Origin: Haloarchaeobius amylolyticus
GTDB taxonomy: Archaea > Halobacteriota > Halobacteria > Halobacteriales > Natrialbaceae
Reading direction: 5' to 3'
Length of the DNA stretch: 64,000 bases
Assembly: GCF_026616195.1 (NCBI RefSeq)
Contig: NZ_JANHDH010000001.1
Location: 372,001-436,000 of the forward strand
Part shown: one piece after another, positions 58 through 11,958 of the stretch
Numbering within the stretch: the first letter of the stretch is position 1
Layout of the letters: each line of letters starts with the position of its first letter
The notes under the pieces: generated by a model
What the model saw: the letters and a program-made list of their open reading frames with translations, nothing else
Told to the model about the DNA's origin: nothing
The model's database searches: none
Program-made: the position numbers and the translations under genes

Positions 58-2643
58 TCAGTCGGCCTGCTGCGGCCGCGCCTCCCCGACCGCCTGCCTC
101 CCGGTTCCGGGTGCGCGCTTCCTGAGCAGCCAGACGACGCCGACCATCGGAATCGCGGTCAGGAGCGTCGTCGCGCCGACGATGCCCCAGTCCGCGAGCG
201 TCAGGGGCACGACGTCGAAGGCGCGCTGGAGCGGCCCGACGTACAGCACCGCCAGTTGCAAGACGAGTGAGGCGAGGACGGCGACGGCGAGCCAGCGGTT
301 CGGCTCGGGGTGGCCCGGGATCCACCGCACGACGTAGAGCTTCGCGAACTCCACGACGACGAAGGTGGTGAACACCATCGTGACGAGGTACTCGGTCGTG
401 CTGCCACTCGTCACCAACCAGTAGACGAGCCCGAGCATGACGACGGTCGACGAGAGGCCGAGCCCGGCGATGGTCCGGCGCATCTGCGGGTCGAGGATGC
501 CCTCGCTCCGGTCGCGAGGCGGCCGGTCCATCACGTCGCCGCTCTCGGGGTCGACGCCGAGGGCGACCGCCGGCAGGCCGTCGGTGAGCAGGTTGATCCA
601 GAGCAGTTGTGCCGGCGGCAGGATGAGCAGCCCGTACAGCGAGGCGATGAACACGAGCAGCACCTCCGCGGCGTTGGCCGACAGCAGGTAGGCGACGAAC
701 TTCCAGATGTTGTCGAAGATGGTCCGGCCGTTCCGGATGGCCCGGGCGATGGTCGCGTAGTTGTCGTCGAGCAGGACGAGGTCGGAGGCCTGCTTGGCGA
801 CCTCGGTCCCGCGTTCGCCCATCGAGATGCCCACGTCGGCGTGTTTCAGCGCCGGTGCGTCGTTCACGCCGTCCCCGGTCATGGCGACGGTGTGCCCGTT
901 CGCCTGCAGGGCGCGGCAGATGGCGACCTTGTGCTCGGGGAGGACGCGGGCGAACACGTCGTGGGTCTCGACCGCCTCGTCGAGGTCGCCCTCCTCCATC
1001 GCGTCGATGTCGTTGCCGGTGACGACCTCGCCGGAGAGCCCGACCTGCTCGCCGATGACGGCCGCGGTCCGGCGGTTGTCGCCGGTGATGAGCTTCACGT
1101 CGATGCCGGCGTCGCGCGTCTCCGCGATGGCGCCGCGGACCTCGGGCCGGGGCGGGTCCTGCATCCCCTGCAGGCCGACGAACACGAGGTCGGATTCGGG
1201 GTCTGCCGGGTCGCCGTAGGCGAATCCCAGCACGCGAAGGGCCTGGTCGGCGAAGCCGTCGGCCATCTCGTGGACCTGCTCGCGGGTCGCCTCGTCGAGG
1301 TCGACCGGCCCGTCTTCGGTGAGAATCTGCGAGGAGTGTTCGAGGACCGTCGTCGGAGCGCCCTTGACGAAACTGCGGTCGTCGTGGACGGTCGCCATCC
1401 GCCGGCGCTCCGAGGAGAACGGAATCTCGTCGGTCCGGGGGCGTTCCTCGCGGAGGGTCCCGGGGTCGAGACCGACCGCCGCCGCCGAGTCGACCAGTGC
1501 GACCTCGGTCGGGTCGCCGTTCTCGCCGGTAGCGTCGTTGCAGACCGCGCCGATCTCGAACAGGAGTCGCTCGCGCTCGTGGTCGAGGTCGGTGTCCTCG
1601 ACGGCGAACTCGCGGCCGTGGACCCACGCCTTCGTCACGGTCATCTGGCCCTCGGTGACGGTCCCGGTCTTGTCGGTGGCGACCACGTCGACCGACCCGA
1701 GCGACTCGACCGCGGGGAGTTCGCGGACGAGCGCGTTCTGGTCGGCCATCCGGCGGACCCCGAGCGCGAGCGTGAGGGTGACCACCGCCGGGAGCCCCTC
1801 CGGGACCGCGGCGACCGCCAGCGAGATGGCCGTGAGGCCCGCCCGGAGGAGGCTCGCGCCGCCGGCCACGAGCACGCCGCCGATGATGGTCGCGAGGACG
1901 AGCACGCCGAGGCCGACGCGCCGGCCGAACCTGTCGAGGTCCTCCTGGAGGGGCGTCTCGCGGTTCTCGACGGTCCCGAGCTCGGCCGCGATGGCCCCGA
2001 CCTGCGTGTCCATCCCGGTCGCGTAGACCACCGCGCGCCCGGACCCGCGCACGACGGTCGTCTGCTTGTAGACGAGGTTGTCGCGGTCGGCGACCGCGGT
2101 GTCGGCGTCGAGGACGCCGGTCTCCTTGGACTGCGGGAGGCTCTCGCCCGTGAGCGCGGCCTCGTCGGCCGCGAGGTCGCTCGCCCGCAGGAGCCGGGCG
2201 TCGGCCGGGACCGCGTCGCCCGCCGTCAGTACCAGTACGTCGCCGGGGACGACCTCGGGCGCCGGCACCTCGACCTGTTCGCCGTCCCGGAGGACGGTCG
2301 CGGTCGGCGCAGCGAGCTCGCGCAGGGCGCGCAGGCTCTCCTCGGCCCGGTAGTCCTGCACGAACCCGAAGATGCCGTTGAGGACGACGATGCCGGTGAT
2401 GAGCGCGGCGTCGACGCCGTGTCCGACCACCGCGGCGACGATGGCCGCCGCGATCAGCACCCAGATGAGCGCGCTCTCGAACTGGGCGACGAAGATGTCG
2501 ACGACGCTCCGGCGGTCGCCCTCGACGAACTCGTTCCGTCCGTACTCCTCCAGCCGTCTCGCCGCCTCGTCGCTCGACAGGCCCTCCTCGGCGGTGTCGA
2601 GTTCCCCCAGCAGCGTGTCTGTATCGACGTCGTGTTCGGCCAC
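58..2643 (-). CDS. P-type cation-transporting ATPase, Ca2+-type (P2A, PMR1/PacL-like)
   Basis: An 861-aa membrane pump that should use ATP to export Ca2+ (or Mn2+) from the cytoplasm. The parts appear in the expected order: N-terminal cation ATPase domain, TGES actuator loop near residue 165, PEGLP in the fourth membrane helix near 281, phosphorylation motif DKTGT near 324, and hinge motif GDGVNDAP near 588. Six C-terminal membrane segments include [13 protein letters not shown], whose Asn and Asp match a calcium site. The lack of an N-terminal Cys-X-X-Cys domain argues against a Cu/Zn pump. The start is GTG at 2643, with an AATTATCAA box about 27 bases upstream, consistent with a leaderless transcript. 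The family call is firm; the exact ion is inferred. Confidence 0.93.
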
Positions 2644-2786
2644 GGGTCACGGTTCGACCGTCTCCCTCTTGATAATTCGTGCTGAGCTGTCAACATCGGA
2701 GAACCTCTGGGCGGGCGTGCGTCGATTCCTCTGCGAGAGGGACGAAACGTTCTCGACCTGCGTCTCGGCCCGCCTCGCGGCCTGTC

Positions 2787-3062
2787 TCACCGCTGGAAGA
2801 CGCCGCGCACCGACCAGACGAGGCCCTGCCCGACGTTCCTGACGAAGCCGGCGAGCCCGGTCCGGGGCTCGCGCACCGACTCGAACCGCGCGAGTGCCTC
2901 GTGCGAGACGTGGACCACCTCGCCCGTCACGGCGCGGTTCTCGGCCGCGTCGCCGACCCGCAGCAGGGTGACCCGGTCGTCGGCCCGTCCGACGACCCGG
3001 TACACGCCCGCCGGATGGTCGCTGTCGGGTGGCGGCCGGTAGTGTTCGCCAGCCTCTACCAT
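2787..3062 (-). CDS. Small conserved haloarchaeal protein, function unknown
   Basis: A 91-aa protein without a membrane segment or signal peptide. The middle (GVYRVVGRADDRVTLLRVG) looks like a small beta-rich fold, and the C-terminus is basic and amphipathic (VWSVRGVFQR). Its base composition matches neighbouring genes. It is divergent from the epimerase gene that starts 105 bases away, so the two may share a regulatory region. I do not recognise a named family. A real gene is likely because the frame is clean, begins with ATG and covers an otherwise empty gap. Confidence 0.7.
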   Translation of the reverse strand: MVEAGEHYRPPPDSDHPAGVYRVVGRADDRVTLLRVGDAAENRAVTGEVVHVSHEALARFESVREPRTGLAGFVRNVGQGLVWSVRGVFQR

Positions 3063-3166
3063 GGTGGTGGGTCACGTCGCCAGGGCCTCAATCTTGGGGT
3101 CCGTCAGCGGTGGGTCGCCACCGGGCGACGGGAAGGTTTTTGCGACCTGTGGCAGAATTTGCGACC

Positions 3167-4138
3167 ATGGCAGACAGCACGGTACTCGTCACCGGTGGTA
3201 CGGGCTTCATCGGCTCCTACGTCGCGAAGGACCTGGTCGACCACGGCCACGACGTGGTCGCCTACGACCTCTCGACCGACGACCGCATCCTCTCGAAACT
3301 CGGTATCGCCGACGACGTGACCATCCGCCGCGGCGACGTGAGCGACTCGACAGACGTGGTCCGCGCGGTCAAGGAGACCGGCACGACCCACATCGTCCAC
3401 CTCGCGGCCCTGCTGACCAACACGGCGCGGGACAACCCCCGCGCCGCGATGCAGGTCAACATCGAGGGCACGAACAACATCTTCGAGGCCGCGCGCACCC
3501 TCGACGACCAGGTCGAGCGCGTCGCCTGGGCGTCCTCCGCCGCGGTGTACGCCCCGCCGCACAACTACGACGACGGCTCGGACTGGTGGGTCTCCGAGGA
3601 CGACCTCGTCTACCCGGACACCCTCTACGGCGCGACCAAGGAGTACAACGAGCACCAGGCCCGCGTCTACCACGAGGACCACGACCTGTCCCACGTCGCC
3701 ATCCGACCGACCGTCGCCTACGGTCCCTACCGCGAAACTGGGGGAAGCGCCTTCCTCGCGAACATCATCGAGAAGCCCGCCGTCGGCGAGTCCTTCTCGG
3801 TCGAGTACGGCGACCAGGAGATCGACTGGCAGCACGTCGAGGACATCGCCCAGGCGTTCCGTCTCGCCGCGTTCACCCCCGACGAAGAGCTCAGCCAGCG
3901 CGTCTACAACGTGCGCGGCGAGCTCGCCACCATCCGCGAGGCCGCCGAGACCGTCGAGAAGATCATGCCCGACGCCGACATCGAGGTCTCCGACGAGGGC
4001 GAACTCCCCTGGACCCAGCGTCTGGACATGACGAAGTTCCAGGAAGATACGGGGTACGAGGTGCAGTACGACCTCGAATCCGGCTTCCGCAAGTACATCG
4101 AGGTGCTGCGGGAGGAAGCGGGACTGGACCCGGTCTGA
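3167..4138 (+). CDS. NAD-dependent epimerase/dehydratase (extended SDR)
   Basis: A 323-aa cytoplasmic Rossmann-fold enzyme, probably acting on a nucleotide sugar or related substrate. It has the extended short-chain dehydrogenase glycine motif VTGGTGFIGSYV at residues 6-17, a catalytic Ser region (WASSAAVY), and the active-site Tyr and Lys in YGATKEYNEH. The frame is open upstream, but ATG at 3167 places the Rossmann motif at the very N-terminus as is usual. A TTTTTGCG tract 25-30 bases upstream could be the TATA element. The substrate cannot be read from the sequence, and no sugar-synthesis operon surrounds it. Confidence 0.92.
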   Translation: MADSTVLVTGGTGFIGSYVAKDLVDHGHDVVAYDLSTDDRILSKLGIADDVTIRRGDVSDSTDVVRAVKETGTTHIVHLAALLTNTARDNPRAAMQVNIEGTNNIFEAARTLDDQVERVAWASSAAVYAPPHNYDDGSDWWVSEDDLVYPDTLYGATKEYNEHQARVYHEDHDLSHVAIRPTVAYGPYRETGGSAFLANIIEKPAVGESFSVEYGDQEIDWQHVEDIAQAFRLAAFTPDEELSQRVYNVRGELATIREAAETVEKIMPDADIEVSDEGELPWTQRLDMTKFQEDTGYEVQYDLESGFRKYIEVLREEAGLDPV

Positions 4139-4485
4139 CGGAGTCGATTCGAGCTCCTCGGACACTCCCGCGACGACTGCTTCTTGTCTGGTGTGGTGGC
4201 GCGTGCTGACGAGTCGGTCGACCGGTAGAGAGACCGCGATTCGAATCGCGCGAGGGAGGACTGGAGTGGAGCGAACGCGGAACGGACGGAGTCGGCCGGG
4301 GAGGGCGTGGTGCGGTCGGGTCACCGACGCCAGCATCCGTCTGCGGATTACGGACGCAGACCAGCCGGTCCGGGATATCGAGCCGAAATCGCAGCAGCGA
4401 CCGCCTTCCCGGCACCTATCGTACTATCTTGCCGACACAAACACCAAGACAGATGGCCGACAACCGGGGGAACGATTGATTCGAC
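4139..4485. other. Intergenic region with one perfect palindrome
   Basis: About 350 bases between the epimerase and the actin-like gene. I see no convincing reading frame in either strand; the open frames here are short, Arg-rich GC shadows. The stretch 4390-4480 is more AT-rich than the rest and probably holds the promoter of the downstream gene. A 16-base perfect palindrome sits at 4235-4250. Confidence 0.5.
4235..4250. repeat. 16-bp perfect palindrome
   Basis: CGCGATTCGAATCGCG equals its own reverse complement. It lies about 95 bases after the epimerase stop and 235 bases before the actin-like gene. It could be a protein-binding site, a terminator stem without a T-run, or chance. It has a superficial TTCGAAT resemblance to a tRNA T-loop, but there is no surrounding cloverleaf. 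Confidence 0.5.
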
Positions 4486-7377
4486 ATGGTGGCTGGACTC
4501 GACATCGGGACGGCGGTGCTGACTGCTGCACGGGCCGGGGACGGCGACGCGACGCTCACCACGGCCGGGGCGTCGGTCGTCGCGGTCCCGACCGCGACAC
4601 TCACGGACGCCGGGTTCGACCCGGCCGACCTCTGCTGTATCGAGCGCGACGACACCGTCTTCGTCCTGGGCGGGGACGCGTCGACGGTCGCCGAGGCGAC
4701 CGATGCCGACCCGGAACCGCTCTTCTCCAACGACGTGGTGATTCCCCGCGAGCACGACGCCGCACTCATCGGCGCACTGGCCGACGACGTGCTCGCCGGC
4801 GACGAGGGTGAGGCCGTCTGCTTCACCACGCCGGGGCGATTCCTCGACGCCGACGAACCGACGACAGACCACCGCGAGGCCGTCGCCGAGGGCCTCTCCG
4901 GGGAAGGCTACGACCCGACGCCGGTGAACACCGGGCTCGCGGTCCTCTACGACGCGCTCTCGGACGGGAACTACACCGGCCTCGGCGTGGCGGTCCGCCC
5001 CGCCGTCACGACGGTCTGTCTGGCGTTCTACGGCGTCCCGGTCCTCGGGTTCTCGCTGGGGAAGGGCCGCGACTGGCTCGTCGAGCAGGCCGCCGCGGAA
5101 TCCGGCGAGTCGGTCGAGGCCGTCGCGGACGCACGCGAAGAGTTCACCCTCGGGCTGGACACCAGCTCGGACGGCGTCGAGGGTGCACTCGCCGACGCCT
5201 ACAACGACCTCCTCGCGGACGTGTCGGCGGCCATCCAGCGCGAGGCCGACGAGGGCGACCTGCAGTCCGGGGTCGCCGCGACGGTCGTCGTCGCCGGTAG
5301 CGGGAGCGTCCCCGGCATGGAGATGCTCCTCGGCGCGCAACTCGACGCGGCCCCGCTTCCCTTCTCGGTCGACGACGTACGACTGGCCGATGACCCCGCG
5401 AACAGCGCGGCGCTGGGAGCCCTCGCCGCCGCAGAGTCGGGTGTCGACGGTGACGAGGGAATCGCGGCGAGCGAGGAGGAGGAATCCGGAGACGGTGACG
5501 CCGGCGAGGACAGCCAGCAGTCGCTGACTGCCGCGAGTGCCAGTACGACGGCGACAGCCGCGGCAGGCACGAACGACACGTCCCCGCCTCCGGCACGTGG
5601 CGACCCCGAAGGCGAGAGTTCGAACCGCGCCATCGAGCAGATGTTCGAGCGTCTCGGCAACCGCGAGGACGAGATCGCCAGCATCCGCGAGGACCTCGAC
5701 ACGGCCGCGGCAGACCTCGATTCGCTCCGGGACGACCTGGCCGCCCTCGATGCATCCGCCGCCACCACCGACGACCTCGATTCCGTGGCCGGGGACCTCG
5801 ATTCGCTCCGGGACGACCTGGCCGCCCTCGATGCATCCGCCGCCACCACCGACGACCTCGCGGCCGACGTGGCCGAGGTGACGGCGTCGGTCGACGACGT
5901 CCGGGCAGACGTGGAGACGCTGCAGGCCGGCCAGGAGTCGCTGACGTCCCGGGCCGACGAGGCAGCCACGGAGCGCGAGACACAGGCTGCGAGCATCGAC
6001 GAGGTCGAGTCGGCAGTCGACGCACTGGAGCAGGACACCGACTCGCTGGCCGACGACCTCGAATCGGTCGACGAGAGCGTCGATGCGGTCCGCGCCGACC
6101 TCACCGACGCCCGGGACCGGCTGGACCGCCTCGCCGAGACGGCGGCCGAGACCGACGAGGTCGCCTCGCTCTCGCAGGACCTCGCGGCGCTGGCCGAGCG
6201 GGTCGAGACCCTCGCCGACGAGGGCGCGACCGACGAGGACCTGCAGGCGCTGCGGTCGGACGTGCTGGAGGTCGACATGGCCATCGCGGACCTGCAGGAG
6301 TCGTTCGCCGACCTCGAAGCGGGCAGCGCCGACGCCGAGACGGTCGCCGCACTCCGGGAACGCACCGCGACCGTCGAGGACGAGGTCGAGACGGTGGAGG
6401 AGCGCGTCACCGAGGACGTGGACAGCGTCGGGGAAGAGGTCGCGGCCGTCAGGGACGAGGTCGACTCGCTCGCCACCCAGCTGGCGACCCTCGACGACGC
6501 GCTCGAGGAGGACGTGCCCGACGCCGAGACCGTCTCGGCAGTCGAGAACGCGGTCGAGGAGACCGACGCCGCGGTCGCCGACCTCGAGTCCGACCTCTCG
6601 TCGGTCCGCGAGCGTCTCGAGGAGCAGGCGGCCGCGACCCCGGACGCGGACGACCTGGACGACCTCGCCGGTGACGTCTCGCGCCTCCGCGCCGACCTGA
6701 ACGCCCTCGAGGAGTCAGTCGCGGCGGTCGAGGCCGAACTCGATGATGGCGACCCCGTGACAACCGAGGACCTCGCAGAACTGGCGACCCGACTCGAGGA
6801 CGTCGCGGCCGCCACCGCCGACGCCGACGCGGTGACCGACCTCCGCGACTCGCACTCGTCGCTCTCGGCGCGCCTCGACGACCTGGAGGCCGATGTCGTC
6901 ACCGGGGAGGACCTCGATTCCCTGCGCGAGGAACTGGTCACGGCGGACGACCTCGCCGACGTCCGGGACTCGATGCTCACCGGGGAGGAGCTGACCGCCC
7001 TCGAAGACCGGCTGGCGACCGCCGAGGCGCTCGACGCGCTCGAATCACGGGTCGTCACCGAGGACCGGTTCGCGGACCTCCGCGAGTCGGTCGCGACGGA
7101 GCAGGACCTCGCCGACCTCCGGCACGCCGTCGAGGACCTCCGCGAGGAGCGCGAGGCGACCACGGACCCCGCCGACGGCCCCGCCAGGGCGGGCTTCCTC
7201 GACCGCTTCGGTGTCGGTCTCGGCGGCGGGGCGGTCGTCGCGGGCGTCCTCACCCTCGCGAACTCCGTCAGCGGCCAGGGGATGGCGATGGCCGTGGGTG
7301 GCGGTGCGCTGGTGCTCGGACTGGCCCTCGTCGCCGTCGTCTACATGGGGAGCGAGGACGCCGTCGCGGCAGAATAG
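4486..7377 (+). CDS. Actin/Hsp70-like ATPase domain fused to a long coiled coil and C-terminal membrane anchor
   Basis: A 963-aa three-part protein. Residues 1-315 resemble the actin-Hsp70 ATPase fold: GLDIGTAVLTAAR at 4-16 matches phosphate loop 1, GLGVAVRPAVTTV at 165-177 sits where phosphate loop 2 belongs but lacks the usual Asp, and VVVAGSGSVPG at 267-277 matches the adenosine motif. Residues 316-380 are an acidic, Ser/Thr/Ala-rich linker. Residues about 380-885 are almost continuous heptad-like coiled coil of Asp, Leu, Ala and Glu, including a 27-residue internal duplication. Residues about 907-955 form two hydrophobic helices with a short turn, then an acidic tail. The expected arrangement is a cytoplasmic ATPase tethered to the membrane by a rod that could exceed 50 nm. 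The fold is inferred from motifs; the function is unknown. It differs from the shorter known haloarchaeal actins (salactin, volactin), which as I recall lack such a rod. Confidence 0.85.
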   Translation: MVAGLDIGTAVLTAARAGDGDATLTTAGASVVAVPTATLTDAGFDPADLCCIERDDTVFVLGGDASTVAEATDADPEPLFSNDVVIPREHDAALIGALADDVLAGDEGEAVCFTTPGRFLDADEPTTDHREAVAEGLSGEGYDPTPVNTGLAVLYDALSDGNYTGLGVAVRPAVTTVCLAFYGVPVLGFSLGKGRDWLVEQAAAESGESVEAVADAREEFTLGLDTSSDGVEGALADAYNDLLADVSAAIQREADEGDLQSGVAATVVVAGSGSVPGMEMLLGAQLDAAPLPFSVDDVRLADDPANSAALGALAAAESGVDGDEGIAASEEEESGDGDAGEDSQQSLTAASASTTATAAAGTNDTSPPPARGDPEGESSNRAIEQMFERLGNREDEIASIREDLDTAAADLDSLRDDLAALDASAATTDDLDSVAGDLDSLRDDLAALDASAATTDDLAADVAEVTASVDDVRADVETLQAGQESLTSRADEAATERETQAASIDEVESAVDALEQDTDSLADDLESVDESVDAVRADLTDARDRLDRLAETAAETDEVASLSQDLAALAERVETLADEGATDEDLQALRSDVLEVDMAIADLQESFADLEAGSADAETVAALRERTATVEDEVETVEERVTEDVDSVGEEVAAVRDEVDSLATQLATLDDALEEDVPDAETVSAVENAVEETDAAVADLESDLSSVRERLEEQAAATPDADDLDDLAGDVSRLRADLNALEESVAAVEAELDDGDPVTTEDLAELATRLEDVAAATADADAVTDLRDSHSSLSARLDDLEADVVTGEDLDSLREELVTADDLADVRDSMLTGEELTALEDRLATAEALDALESRVVTEDRFADLRESVATEQDLADLRHAVEDLREEREATTDPADGPARAGFLDRFGVGLGGGAVVAGVLTLANSVSGQGMAMAVGGGALVLGLALVAVVYMGSEDAVAAE
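5713..5860 (+). repeat. 67-bp identical direct repeat inside the coiled-coil gene
   Basis: Bases 5713-5779 and 5794-5860 are identical over 67 bases. The 81-base period is exactly 27 codons, so it is in frame. Each unit encodes DLDSLRDDLAALDASAATTD followed by DL. Complete identity, including third codon positions, points to a recent duplication or ongoing homogenisation that lengthens the coiled coil in whole-unit steps. Confidence 0.9.
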
Positions 7378-7395
7378 TAAGAATCCCGACCCTGG

Positions 7396-7515
7396 TTACT
7401 CCCGGGGAAGGGAGACGTTCCGAAGCTCGCCACCGCACTTCGGGCATTCGTTCTCGTCGGGGTCTTCGGTCCGGAGACCGCAACTCAGACACTCGTACTC
7501 TGTCGAGGTTGTCAT
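7396..7515 (-). CDS. 39-aa rubrerythrin-like zinc-ribbon microprotein
   Basis: A very small gene. It reads MTTSTEYECLSCGLRTED and then ECPKCGGELRNVSLPRE, ending with TAA at 7396-7398. The two CxxC pairs (YECLSCG and CPKCG) form a rubredoxin-type zinc or iron knuckle. It shares the pattern TEYEC..CG...C....GE.RNVS..RE with the 47-aa protein at 40838-40981, so the two are paralogues. A GATATGATAAGG box at about 7537-7546 lies 26 bases upstream of the ATG, which suggests a leaderless transcript. Such haloarchaeal rubrerythrin-like domain proteins are common; their role (redox or protein binding) is not known. Confidence 0.85.
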   Translation of the reverse strand: MTTSTEYECLSCGLRTEDPDENECPKCGGELRNVSLPRE

Positions 7516-7588
7516 GATGGTCTCTGTAGGGGACGCGATATGATAAGGATTACCGCGTCACCGAGTAACGTGATAACTGGTGGTTCCA

Positions 7589-7607
7589 TGGCGTCCTCGG
7601 GACGCCA
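7589..7607 (+). repeat. Perfect 8-bp stem-loop
   Basis: TGGCGTCC and GGACGCCA flank a TCG loop. It lies between the divergent zinc-ribbon and liv1 promoters. No T-run follows, so it is more likely a binding site or RNA hairpin than a terminator. Confidence 0.5.
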
Positions 7608-7789
7608 GTCGTTGCCAACGCTGCGTCGAATCGTCGCCCCGTCTTCGCATCTGGTGACCAACCCCGCCAACAGTCAACAGTCGGATACGCTATAAGTCGG
7701 GGCGGTCGGGGGCACCAACTGAGAACCACCTACTAGGCGTTTTCGCAAGACACAAGCCTTGCATCCATTTGATGTGTTCGCCGAGCCCA

Positions 7790-7797
7790 TATATAAA
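7790..7797 (+). promoter_or_regulatory. Probable TATA box of the liv1 operon
   Basis: The sequence CATATATAAACC is a strong archaeal TATA element. Its centre, near 7793, predicts transcription from about 7820, giving a 5' leader of roughly 30 bases before the ATG at 7852. A second AT-rich tract, CTATTTTTAATAATG, at about 7829-7843 is too close to the ATG to serve as its promoter. Confidence 0.55.
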
Positions 7798-7851
7798 CCC
7801 CGTCTATGCAGGGGCGAACGGCTTTACCCTATTTTTAATAATGAATCATCC

Positions 7852-9123
7852 ATGGCACGGGGAAACAATGACCATCTGGTTTCGGGTCGGAATAAAGAGA
7901 CGAGCATCGGGTCTCGTCGCGCGTTCTTGAAGCTTGCAGCGGGCGGCAGTGCACTGAGCCTCGCCGGCTGTCTGGGTAACATCGGCGGCGCAGGCGGGAC
8001 CGACGACACACTGACCTACGGTGTCGTCAGTCCGATGTCCGGCGCATACAGCGGTCTGGCGCCGGGCCAGCGCAACGGTGCGAAGCTGGCCATCAAGACG
8101 CTCCAGGAGTCCGAGGACTTCGACTTCGAGATCGAGGGTGTGTACAAGGACGGGAAGACGGAGGACACCGCGTCGGTACAGGCCGCCCGCCGGGCGGTCG
8201 AACAGGACGGCGCCAACTTCGTCATGGGGGCCATCTCCAGTTCCGTCGCGCTCGCACTGAACGAACTCGCGAAGGACGAACAGGTAATCTACAACCCCGG
8301 TGGGGCCGCCGTGCCCATCACCGGGAGTGGGTGTAACGAGTACGTCTTCCGTGCCGAGACCAACACGGCACAGATCGCGGAGGCCGTCTCCGAGTACACG
8401 GTCAACAACCTCGGGACGGACGTCTGGTTCCACATCGCGGACTACGCCTACGGGACCTCGGTCCAGAACCGCGTCCAGATGCGCATGGAGGAGGCCGACT
8501 CGAACGTCAACGTCGTCGGCACCTCCAAGTCCGAACTCGGGGCGAGCAACTTCGACTCGTACATCTCACAGATCGACAACTCCGACGCCGAGGTCGTGGT
8601 CCTCGGGATGACCGGCGGCGACCTCATCTCGTTCGTGAGCCAGGCCGTCGACAGCGGCCTCACGGAGAACGTCGACATCATGGCGCCGACGATGACCTTC
8701 CAGGTCGTCCGCGGCGCACTCGGCCCGAAGGCGTACGGGACCTACGGCGGCGTCCGCTACGTCGCGGACATCGACAACCCGAAGAACAACAGTTTCGTCG
8801 ACGCCTACAAGAGCGAGTACGACGCGGTCCCGGACAACTTCGCCCGGGTCGGCTACCAGTCCATCATGATGACCGCCGAGGGCGTCAAGGAGGCCGGCTC
8901 GACCAACGTCGACGACGTCATCGACGCGCTCGAGGGCCTCGAGATGGACAGCATCCTCGGGACCAACCAGTTCCGGGCCTGCGACCACCAGGCGCTCAAC
9001 CCGACCTGGATGGGCAAGTGTGTCGAACCGGAGTCGGGCGAGATGGCGGACGTCGAGTTGCTGAAGAAGGTCGAGGGCAAGGACGCGATGATCCCCTGCG
9101 ACGAAACCGAGTGCTCGCTCTAA
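7852..9123 (+). CDS. livJ: Branched-chain/aromatic-type ABC substrate-binding lipoprotein (liv1)
   Basis: A 423-aa extracellular binding protein (Peripla_BP_6 family) anchored to the outer face of the membrane. A twin-arginine signal (SRRAFLKLAAGGSALSLAGC) gives Tat export and a lipid-modified Cys. The mature protein starts with TLTYGVVSPMSGAYSGLAPG, the usual family beginning. The ATG at 7852 is preferred over the longer open frame because it puts the Arg pair about 20 residues from the start and follows the TATA box. Its stop is one base before the permease gene, so it heads the liv1 operon. The phenylacetate-CoA ligase at the operon's end suggests an aromatic or branched-chain acid as substrate rather than an amino acid, but this is inference. 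Confidence 0.92.
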   Translation: MARGNNDHLVSGRNKETSIGSRRAFLKLAAGGSALSLAGCLGNIGGAGGTDDTLTYGVVSPMSGAYSGLAPGQRNGAKLAIKTLQESEDFDFEIEGVYKDGKTEDTASVQAARRAVEQDGANFVMGAISSSVALALNELAKDEQVIYNPGGAAVPITGSGCNEYVFRAETNTAQIAEAVSEYTVNNLGTDVWFHIADYAYGTSVQNRVQMRMEEADSNVNVVGTSKSELGASNFDSYISQIDNSDAEVVVLGMTGGDLISFVSQAVDSGLTENVDIMAPTMTFQVVRGALGPKAYGTYGGVRYVADIDNPKNNSFVDAYKSEYDAVPDNFARVGYQSIMMTAEGVKEAGSTNVDDVIDALEGLEMDSILGTNQFRACDHQALNPTWMGKCVEPESGEMADVELLKKVEGKDAMIPCDETECSL

Positions 9124-9124
9124 G

Positions 9125-11161
9125 ATGTCGACGCTACCACTGGTCTCAGGTGCAGCCATCCTCGACCAGCTCATCAACGGGCTGACCGTCGGGATGGTGT
9201 ACGTCCTCCTCGCCGCGGGTCTGTCCATCATCTTCGGCGTGATGGACGTCATCAACTTCGCCCACGGCGAGTTGCTGGCCCTGGGCGCGTACCTCGCCGT
9301 CGCCCTCTCGACGGCCGGCATCGGCAACTTCTGGGTGGCCCTGCTGGTCGCGCCACTGGCGGTGGCGGTCCTGGGCGGCGCGATGGAGCGGCTGACCATC
9401 CGGCCGCTCTACGGGCGCAACCCGCTGTATCACATCCTGTTGACGTTCGGGCTGGTGCTCATCTTCGTGGACGCCATCGAGCTGATATGGGGGACACAGT
9501 CCCTCGGGACGCTCGACACCGGCGCGCTCTCGGGGACCATCACCATCCTCGGCTTCCAGAAGCAGCTGTACAGCTACTTCGTCATCATCGCCGGGTCGGT
9601 CGTCGCGGCCGGCGCGTGGCTGGTGCTCGAGAAGACCCGGTTCGGGCTCGTCGTCCGCGCCGGCTCGATGGACCGCGACATGGTCCGTCACCTCGGCATC
9701 GACATCGACCGCTACTACACCCTCGTCTTCGCGTTCGGGGCGTTCCTGGCCGCCGTCGGCGGGGTCATCCTCGCCGGCCGGCAGTCGGTCGACCCCGGCA
9801 TGGGTGCCGGCGTCATCATCCCGGCGTTCATCGTCGTGGTGCTCGGCGGCCTCGGGAGCTTCCGCGGCGCGGTCGCGGGTGGCCTGCTCGTCGGCGTCGT
9901 CCAGACGCTGGTACGCTGGCAACTCCCGTTCCTCGAGGGGCTCGTCGTCTTCCTGCTGATGATCGGCGTCCTGCTGGTCCGCCCGCAGGGCCTGTTCGGC
10001 AGCCCCGAGTGGCACGACCCCGGCGAGTCCGGTGGCGACCTGCTCACGGGCGCCGGCGGCGGCCTGCTCACGCCACAGCAACGGAAGTTGCTCGGCGGGG
10101 GCGTCGTCGCCTTGCTGTTCCTGGCGCCACTCGGCATCGGGAACCTCTGGGGCTCGTACTTCGTGAACACGTTCCTCGTCGACATCCTCATCTGGGCGCT
10201 GTTCGCGCTCAGTCTCGACCTCGTGATGGGCTACACCGGCCTGGTGTCGCTGGGCCACGTCCTGTTCTACGGGGTCGGCGCGTACGCGACGGTGCTGTTC
10301 GCGCTGTACCTGCTCCCGTCGGTCTGGATCGCGCTCCTGGTCGGCATCCTCGTCGCGGCACTCATCGCGTGGGTCGTCGGGTACCTGTCCATCCGGGTCT
10401 CCGGCGTCTACTTCTCGATGATCACGCTGGCGTTCGCCGAACTGTTCGCCAGCCTGACGGTGAAGATGCCGGGCCTGCGCGCGGAGATCAACCCGTTCCT
10501 CGCCTCCATCGGCGTCCCGACCATCCCGCCGCTCACGCAGGGTGAGGACGGCATCGGGGCCGGCGAGCTGTACTACGGACTCACGTCCGGGCCCGAGTTC
10601 GGCAACGTCGCCCTGCTCGGCGACATCATGCTGAACTACTACGTCGTGCTCGTGCTGGTCGTGGTCTCGTACTTCGTGGCTCGCCGCCTCATCGACGCCC
10701 CCTTCGGGAGCGTCCTGCAGTCCATCCGCGAGTCCGAACAGCGCGCGTCGTTCCTCGGCTACGACACGACCGCGTACAAGCGCCGGGCGTTCGTCGTCAG
10801 CGGGGCCCTCGGTGGCCTCGCCGGCGGCCTGCGCGCGACCCAGACGCTGGGTCGGGCGTCGCCCGGGTTCCTCGACTGGCTCCTCTCGGGCGAGGTCATC
10901 GTCATGACCTTGCTCGGCGGGATGGGGACCCTGTACGGCCCGATGATAGGGGCGGCCGGGTTCATCTCGCTGCAGGAGCTGCTGCTCGAACAGGGTATCG
11001 GCTACTGGCAGGGCGTCCTCGGCGTCGTCTTCGTCCTGTTCGTCATCTTCGTCCCGCGCGGCCTCGTCTCGGTGCCGTCGCTCATCAAGCAGCGCCAGCA
11101 GGCGATGTCCGGCGGGGAAGGTGGCTCTCCCGACGCCGAACCCACGGAGGTGAGTGACTGA
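9125..11161 (+). CDS. Fused LivH-LivM ABC permease (liv1)
   Basis: A 678-aa integral membrane protein that combines both permease subunits of a HAAT-family importer. Residues about 1-295 are LivH-like (MVYVLLAAGLSIIFGVMDVI, then NFAHGE and the loop GGLGSFRGAVAGG). Residues about 320-678 are LivM-like (LSLDLVMGYTGLVSLGHVLF, then the loop GGMGTLYGPMIGA). A Gly/Asp-rich linker near 300-315 joins them. The family normally has two polypeptides of about 290 and 330-400 aa, as in the liv2 cluster of this same window. ATG begins two bases after the binding-protein stop, and the 3' end overlaps the livG start by one base. Confidence 0.93.
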   Translation: MSTLPLVSGAAILDQLINGLTVGMVYVLLAAGLSIIFGVMDVINFAHGELLALGAYLAVALSTAGIGNFWVALLVAPLAVAVLGGAMERLTIRPLYGRNPLYHILLTFGLVLIFVDAIELIWGTQSLGTLDTGALSGTITILGFQKQLYSYFVIIAGSVVAAGAWLVLEKTRFGLVVRAGSMDRDMVRHLGIDIDRYYTLVFAFGAFLAAVGGVILAGRQSVDPGMGAGVIIPAFIVVVLGGLGSFRGAVAGGLLVGVVQTLVRWQLPFLEGLVVFLLMIGVLLVRPQGLFGSPEWHDPGESGGDLLTGAGGGLLTPQQRKLLGGGVVALLFLAPLGIGNLWGSYFVNTFLVDILIWALFALSLDLVMGYTGLVSLGHVLFYGVGAYATVLFALYLLPSVWIALLVGILVAALIAWVVGYLSIRVSGVYFSMITLAFAELFASLTVKMPGLRAEINPFLASIGVPTIPPLTQGEDGIGAGELYYGLTSGPEFGNVALLGDIMLNYYVVLVLVVVSYFVARRLIDAPFGSVLQSIRESEQRASFLGYDTTAYKRRAFVVSGALGGLAGGLRATQTLGRASPGFLDWLLSGEVIVMTLLGGMGTLYGPMIGAAGFISLQELLLEQGIGYWQGVLGVVFVLFVIFVPRGLVSVPSLIKQRQQAMSGGEGGSPDAEPTEVSD

Positions 11162-11958
11162 TGGCGACCGCACACGACGCGACCGACTCGTTCGACACCG
11201 GCGACCCCGTGCTCGAGACGCGTGAGCTCACCCGGCGCTTCGGCGAGCTGGTTGCCACGGACGACCTCTCCATCGAGGTCCAGGCCGGCGAGTTCCGGAG
11301 CATCATCGGCCCGAACGGCGCCGGGAAGACCACCCTGTTCAACCTCGTCTCGGGGGCGCTGTACCCGAGCGAGGGGGCGGTCATCTTCCAGGGCGAGGAC
11401 GTCTCCCGGCTCCCACCCCACAAGCGCGTGAAGAAGGGCATCGGGCGCTCGTTCCAGATCACCAACGTCTTCGGGGGCCTCTCGGTCCGCGAGAACGTCC
11501 GACTCGCCGCACAGGCGACCGTCGGTGAGCGCTCGCCCGTCCAGAACCTCTTCGGCAACAAGGACTCGTTCCCCGACCTGAACGAGCGCACCGACGACGT
11601 GCTCTCCCGGGTCGGCCTCGACGGCCGCGGGGACGAGCGCGCCTCGGCGATGGCCTACGGCGACCGGCGCCGGCTGGAGATCGGCCTCGTGCTCGCGACC
11701 GACCCGGACCTCGTCATGCTCGACGAGCCCACCGCGGGCATGAGCGCCGACGAGACCCGTGCCACGATGGAACTCATCGGGGACGTCCTCTCGGACAGGA
11801 CCGTCCTGCTCATCGAACACGACATCGAACTCGTCATGAACGCATCCGACCGCATCACGGTCCTGAACCGCGGCTCAGAGCTCGCGACCGGCGCACCAGA
11901 AGAGGTCGCGGAGAACGACGAGGTCCAGCAGGCCTACCTCGGCGGTGGTGTGGTATGA
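11161..11958 (+). CDS. livG: LivG-type ABC ATPase (liv1)
   Basis: A 265-aa cytoplasmic ATPase that powers the liv1 permease. Walker A is GPNGAGKTT, the LivG-type signature is MAYGDRRRLEIG (in place of LSGGQ), and Walker B is LVMLDEPTAG. The switch His is in LIEHDIELVM. The start ATG shares its first base with the permease stop (TGATG), and the end overlaps livF by four bases (ATGA), so translation is probably coupled throughout the operon. Confidence 0.94.
   Translation: MATAHDATDSFDTGDPVLETRELTRRFGELVATDDLSIEVQAGEFRSIIGPNGAGKTTLFNLVSGALYPSEGAVIFQGEDVSRLPPHKRVKKGIGRSFQITNVFGGLSVRENVRLAAQATVGERSPVQNLFGNKDSFPDLNERTDDVLSRVGLDGRGDERASAMAYGDRRRLEIGLVLATDPDLVMLDEPTAGMSADETRATMELIGDVLSDRTVLLIEHDIELVMNASDRITVLNRGSELATGAPEEVAENDEVQQAYLGGGVV

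Follow-up and report, generated by a model that had tools for sequence, protein, structure and literature searches.

The haloarchaeal actin homolog volactin (VolA, HVO_2015) controls cell shape in Haloferax, where its filaments are dynamic in vivo and meet the membrane by their tips only; the binding factors are unknown (PMC10869688). Salactin, an actin homolog of Halobacterium salinarum, also forms dynamic filaments (PMC10746226). Within a window of 64,000 nucleotides from Haloarchaeobius amylolyticus (contig NZ_JANHDH010000001.1, positions 372,001 to 436,000), we found a gene whose product is a volactin paralog bearing a long rod and a membrane anchor. Such 'rod-volactins' are not described in the open-licence papers on volactin, salactin and haloarchaeal coiled-coil actins, and no coiled coil is mentioned for salactin (PMC10746226). 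They constitute a new subfamily of the known Volactin family, with a new architecture. Rod-volactins are widespread, have kept the fold and lost hallmark catalytic residues, and have a very long rod fixing them to the membrane, which makes them a concrete candidate for one volactin binding factor. If the reading developed below is true, they would likewise provide a clear example of a duplicated cytoskeletal ATPase turned into a fixed structural part.

The gene (positions 4486 to 7377, forward strand) is complete: it encodes 963 amino acids followed by a stop codon in one uninterrupted frame, in agreement with the single chain claimed in the earlier note, and the whole frame is kept in relatives. 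Residues 1-318 of the protein form an actin-fold head; an acidic linker, a heptad coiled coil of about 500 residues and, at the C-terminus, a membrane hairpin follow in this order. Sequence and structural model together show its fold, its family, its architecture and the conservation of the latter, as well as the erosion of the nucleotide site, and we consider this anatomy and family assignment almost certain. No N-terminal signal is apparent, and we therefore infer that head and rod are cytoplasmic. Long antisense frames, reaching 684 amino acids, lie over the rod (for example, 5199-7253, reverse strand); they bear no sign of being genes, and such frames are expected of GC-rich acidic coding sequence.

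The head (4486-5439, forward strand) matches the Pfam Volactin family (PF25216) over residues 1-316, with 331 bits (cut-off 35), an E-value of 1e-98 and coverage of profile positions 1-321 of 321. The same genome also contains an ordinary volactin of 341 amino acids, with which the head aligns end to end at 35% identity. These two observations are the grounds on which we call the window protein a rod-bearing volactin paralog, and they overturn the view that it has no obvious parallel among haloarchaeal actins, since its head is a divergent volactin. Ordinary volactins are chains of 338-350 amino acids, nearly invariant, with a connect-1 Glu and an intact GAG loop in all 46 cases. The window protein, in contrast, has some 640 additional residues (linker, coiled coil and hairpin), Thr149 and RPA at these two sites, and a position in the tree outside the ordinary volactins.

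The AlphaFold model of residues 1-325, based on an alignment of 27 heads, has a mean pLDDT of 92.9, and its best PDB matches by Foldseek are MreB, BeeR and MamK (best E-value about 6e-13, TM-score about 0.6-0.65). Structure prediction and structural search thus bear out the actin-fold head proposed earlier. MreB, MamK and BeeR share the fold of the window head and only 14-20% of aligned residues (Foldseek); they are functional polymers dependent on nucleotide and lack a coiled-coil rod of this kind. As no MreB entry of the PDB is reached by sequence profiles of the head, residue equivalence to MreB and actin rests on the fold and on motif position, together with general knowledge. Relative to the Actin/Hsp70 superfamily, the window head has the fold but not the catalytic residues (A169 and T149).

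Is such a head still an ATPase? The earlier note saw in it a nucleotide-switch head on a membrane-bound rod, which could measure distance from the membrane or link the chromosome or the division ring to it. The phosphate-1 and adenosine motifs that it had recognised are indeed present: the former is the loop GLDIGT (residues 4-9; 4495-4512, forward strand), the latter an adenosine-like loop (residues 267-277; 5284-5316, forward strand) that is altered from the GGTSS of ordinary volactin. The phosphate-2 loop GLGVAVRPAVTT (residues 165-176; 4978-5013, forward strand) has A169 at the Asp position and RPA in place of the glycines, with Thr175 kept. The Asp is therefore absent, as had been claimed, and the slow or absent hydrolysis that its absence had suggested is probable too, but the Asp alone is insufficient to establish it. 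Its loss says little because all 46 ordinary volactins likewise lack the Asp, with Ser at this position, and the volactin of Haloferax behaves dynamically in living cells (PMC10869688). We accordingly dropped the missing Asp as the sole mark of a dead ATPase.

Better evidence of a loss of hydrolysis comes from the connect-1 Glu, which has been lost, as have glycines of the phosphate loops. The connect-1 catalytic position, Thr149 in the window protein (4930-4932, forward strand), directly follows strand 143-148 and begins helix 149-157 in the AlphaFold head model; we take it to be the place of the hydrolytic Glu or Gln of DnaK, MreB and actin. Glu occupies this position in 46 of 46 ordinary volactins and in none of 67 rod-volactins: the 62 rod-volactins of Natrialbaceae have K (24), R (16), T (13), S (5), Q (3) or A (1), and the five found outside this family have R or P. 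In the 46 volactins, the residues DVGTM of phosphate-1, Glu149, and S-F-G-A-G-M-T-N of phosphate-2 (window numbering) are all invariant, whereas the 62 rod-volactins vary at G8 and T9 of phosphate-1 and at G171 and G173 of phosphate-2, and differ in the adenosine loop. Two residues are kept, namely Asp6 of phosphate-1 (60/62) and Thr175 of phosphate-2 (62/62). Some heads that apparently had no phosphate-1 motif merely have a shortened stretch after it; the motif was present in both of those checked.

We consider it highly probable that rod heads are impaired in hydrolysis. The Actin/Hsp70 fold and the retained phosphate-1 Asp and phosphate-2 Thr would be compatible with a working switch; with the connect-1 Glu missing from all rod-volactins and both phosphate loops eroded, the switch is doubtful, and we regard this reading as very improbable.

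Head and rod are joined by an acidic/Ala-Ser-Thr linker (residues 319-371; 5440-5598, forward strand), with pLDDT below 50 at residues 322-378 of the full-length model. A linker motif, [LV][STA]FD, typically TLSFDD, is present in 47 of the 62 rod-volactins where 0.7 would be expected, usually 7-16 residues ahead of the neck (for instance in L090, L074 and L083). It is possibly a docking peptide for a partner. In our scan of the 62 proteins, it was not found in Haloarchaeobius, the genus of the window, or in Halorubellus. The resemblance of LSFDD to a docking site speaks for another explanation, by which the head would serve as a binding module that needs no nucleotide, its actin fold would be a leftover scaffold, and the whole protein would be a general tether or spacer running from the membrane to some other partner (the chromosome, the division ring or the archaellum base). 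The lost catalytic residues would fit this well, as would the rod-specific residues conserved in the family consensus of the head (such as R285, D287 and R299). However, the linker motif is missing from the window's own genus, and the conservation of Asp6 and Thr175 implies that some nucleotide binding may persist; a pure binding module is, in our opinion, distinctly unlikely.

At the start of the rod is a neck motif, SSNRAIEQMFERLGNREDEIASI (5599-5712, forward strand), whose family consensus DDAIDQLFDRLANRDDEI is found in nearly all rod-volactins and yields strong profile matches only inside rod genes. The coiled coil itself (residues 374-889; 5605-7152, forward strand) is seen both in the periodicity of the sequence and in the full-length AlphaFold model, where residues 374-889 form a near-continuous helix with short breaks, at low confidence in parts of the rod. 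Its hydrophobic residues recur with a period of 3.4-3.5 residues (z about 28 above shuffles for residues 377-895, which contain 0.8% Pro), and the same test on the head revealed no such period. The coiled coil of about 500 residues that had been claimed thus stands. Taken as a single unbroken helix with 0.1485 nm per residue, it would measure about 77 nm.

In the membrane-proximal part of the rod, a repeat of exactly 13 residues occurs six times in a row (residues 804-881; 6895-7128, forward strand; examples are VVTGEDLDSLREE, LVTADDLADVRDS and MLTGEELTALEDR). Its core is V/L/M-x-T, and acidic residues come after it. The repeat motif is over-represented, with 9 matches against a mean of 1.2 and a maximum of 6 in 2000 shuffles, and the repeats occur only in the window protein and, less regularly, in its closest relative (L062). 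A 13-residue unit would equal a heptad plus a hexad. The aliphatic-x-Thr-x-polar-acidic pattern resembles the beta-layer consensus of alpha/beta coiled coils (Tcar0761 and DUF1640 stalks; PMC4786415), but our repeats are spaced by 13 residues and are not nonads. We rejected a relationship to SMC/Rad50, as the NCBIfam matches reach only 27-58 bits for cut-offs of at least 300 and involve the coiled-coil region only. Other coiled-coil families were also set aside: their Pfam and NCBIfam matches in the rod look compositional, those of NCBIfam falling well short of their cut-offs and Pfam DUF1664 being barely over its own.

Complete rod-volactins that we read range from 575 to 1313 amino acids, counted from the conserved start. 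Rod length thus varies several-fold among relatives and is ill-suited to setting one fixed distance, which leaves the idea that the protein measures distance from the membrane unsupported.

The C-terminal membrane hairpin (7213-7341, forward strand) has a Gly-rich first arm and hydropathy peaks at residues 910-928 and 934-952, in a region where the full-length AlphaFold model is of low confidence. Every complete relative that we read has a C-terminal hydrophobic segment or pair of segments, and a profile of the hairpin gave strong matches (E-value below 1e-6) in rod frames only. On the membrane hairpin, the earlier note was right. As an actin fold held at the membrane and proposed to tie a filament to it, the window protein would work like FtsA. 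FtsA tethers FtsZ and attaches itself through a short amphipathic helix at its C-terminus; unlike the window protein, it has no long rod and no hairpin.

How widespread is this architecture? Using a profile of rod heads, we detected a rod gene in 86 of 125 Natrialbaceae genomes, the other 39 having none; the set was taken as Natrialbaceae from its named matches (Natrinema, Natronorubrum, Haloterrigena, Halovivax, Haloarchaeobius and others), and the nearest named relatives of the window protein are from Haloarchaeobius. With this profile the genomes divide cleanly, by counts made by hand. The rod genes are frames of 649-1564 amino acids scoring at least 299 bits. Volactins score about 297 bits or less, in frames of 342-432 amino acids, with the exception of one 702-codon frame in an incomplete genome. 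Five further rod-volactins, much diverged, belong to two other families of the order, and we hence rejected a restriction to Natrialbaceae; a profile of these five retrieved no others among the best five candidates per genome in 391 genomes of the class. The architecture recurs in about 90 genomes.

The dN/dS ratio is 0.18-0.37 in heads, indicating purifying selection, and 0.32-0.52 in rods, where selection is weaker; it is below 0.55 throughout. Recurrence in about 90 genomes and purifying selection on the head argue that the layout is more than chance. An artefact, either a fusion created by an assembly error or a decaying pseudogene, has nothing to recommend it beyond the unusual mix of domains in one chain. 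It is refuted by the relatives: the architecture is present in about 90 separately sequenced genomes, with dN/dS below 0.55 and no internal stops, and its probability is practically nil.

In an unrooted tree, the 62 Natrialbaceae rod-volactins form one group (support 100/100), and when those from outside the family are added, one branch separates all rod-volactins from all volactins (100/99.8). The tree would be compatible with one origin of the rod design, although, being unrooted, it does not prove it. Volactin is nearly invariant in this tree, whereas rod heads are long-branched and fast-evolving.

We consider that the rod-volactin is best read as a hydrolysis-deficient pseudo-actin tethered to the membrane. 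Our explanation as a whole, to which we assign a probability of roughly 45%, is that of an eroded volactin paralog carried on a membrane rod and binding the ends of volactin filaments. Two or three chains would zip into a rod rising from the inside of the membrane; the rod would hold two or three heads tens of nanometres, and up to about 75 nm, into the cytoplasm. By hydrolysing ATP poorly or not at all, the heads could present a stable, non-cycling actin surface, which might bind, cap or nucleate the end of a dynamic volactin filament of the same cell and would thereby tie this filament to the membrane. That binding volactin ends is the actual job of the protein is our leading guess, and a tentative one. 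A more specific version, in which a dedicated pseudo-actin caps or nucleates one end of the volactin filament and holds the filament off the membrane, appears somewhat unlikely, and we would say the same of the route by which such an end tether could have arisen, with a filament protein duplicated, its ATPase disabled, and a rod and an anchor added.

The distribution bears on this proposal in two ways. First, a second, volactin-type match exists in every genome with a rod gene, but this co-occurrence weighs little since nearly all Natrialbaceae genomes hold volactin. Second, most volactin-bearing haloarchaea outside Natrialbaceae have no rod-volactin; as this is also true of 39 of the 125 Natrialbaceae genomes, the general anchoring of filament tips cannot depend on it, and the rod would be a tether added in some lineages rather than a general one. 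In addition, rod heads evolve fast whereas volactin is nearly invariant, which is not what one would expect of heads that use a large surface to bind a conserved filament end. This rapid and independent evolution would better suit co-evolution of the heads with themselves than with volactin, as expected of a self-assembling, FtsA-like membrane pseudo-actin. Its heads would polymerise only with one another, forming short filaments or stable patches somewhere above the membrane, and would organise a membrane zone without ordinary volactin. The actin fold, kept and modelled with high confidence, is consistent with such assembly. On the other hand, polymerisation of actins is usually coupled to nucleotide through the phosphate loops, which are degenerate here, and rod-volactins are found only alongside a volactin-type match, a point that carries little weight. 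We judge self-assembly, and likewise the form proposed for it, unlikely.

The gene neighbours of rod-volactin point to no function. There is no conserved functional neighbour, nor any tie to division or chromosome genes in the neighbourhood that would back the link to the chromosome or division ring suggested earlier. In Haloarchaeobius and some other genomes the rod gene follows an NAD-dependent epimerase, a branched-chain amino-acid transporter lies downstream in Haloarchaeobius only, and in core Natrialbaceae the gene sits beside housekeeping genes. An operon logic was dropped, since these neighbours differ between lineages and give no functional hint.

Some observations concern volactin-like genes in general. 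Plasmid and phage searches yielded distant matches only; one of them (24%) links the head to two uncultured phage genomes of 485-595 kb (LR756511.1 and LR745208.1) and suggests phage-borne actin-like genes. The Haloarcula plasmids NC_006395.1, NZ_CP039137.1 and NZ_CP073369.1 carry a volactin-like gene. Three genomes of another family (G106, G212 and G269) have two ordinary volactins each, and G106 has an additional copy broken into two frames. Finally, an insertion of about 8.8 kb, flanked on either side by a copy of ATGAAACTCATC, interrupts the ordinary volactin gene of one genome (L169; G364:C54:56000-69000, at about 1724-11600), despite the presumed essentiality of volA in Haloferax.
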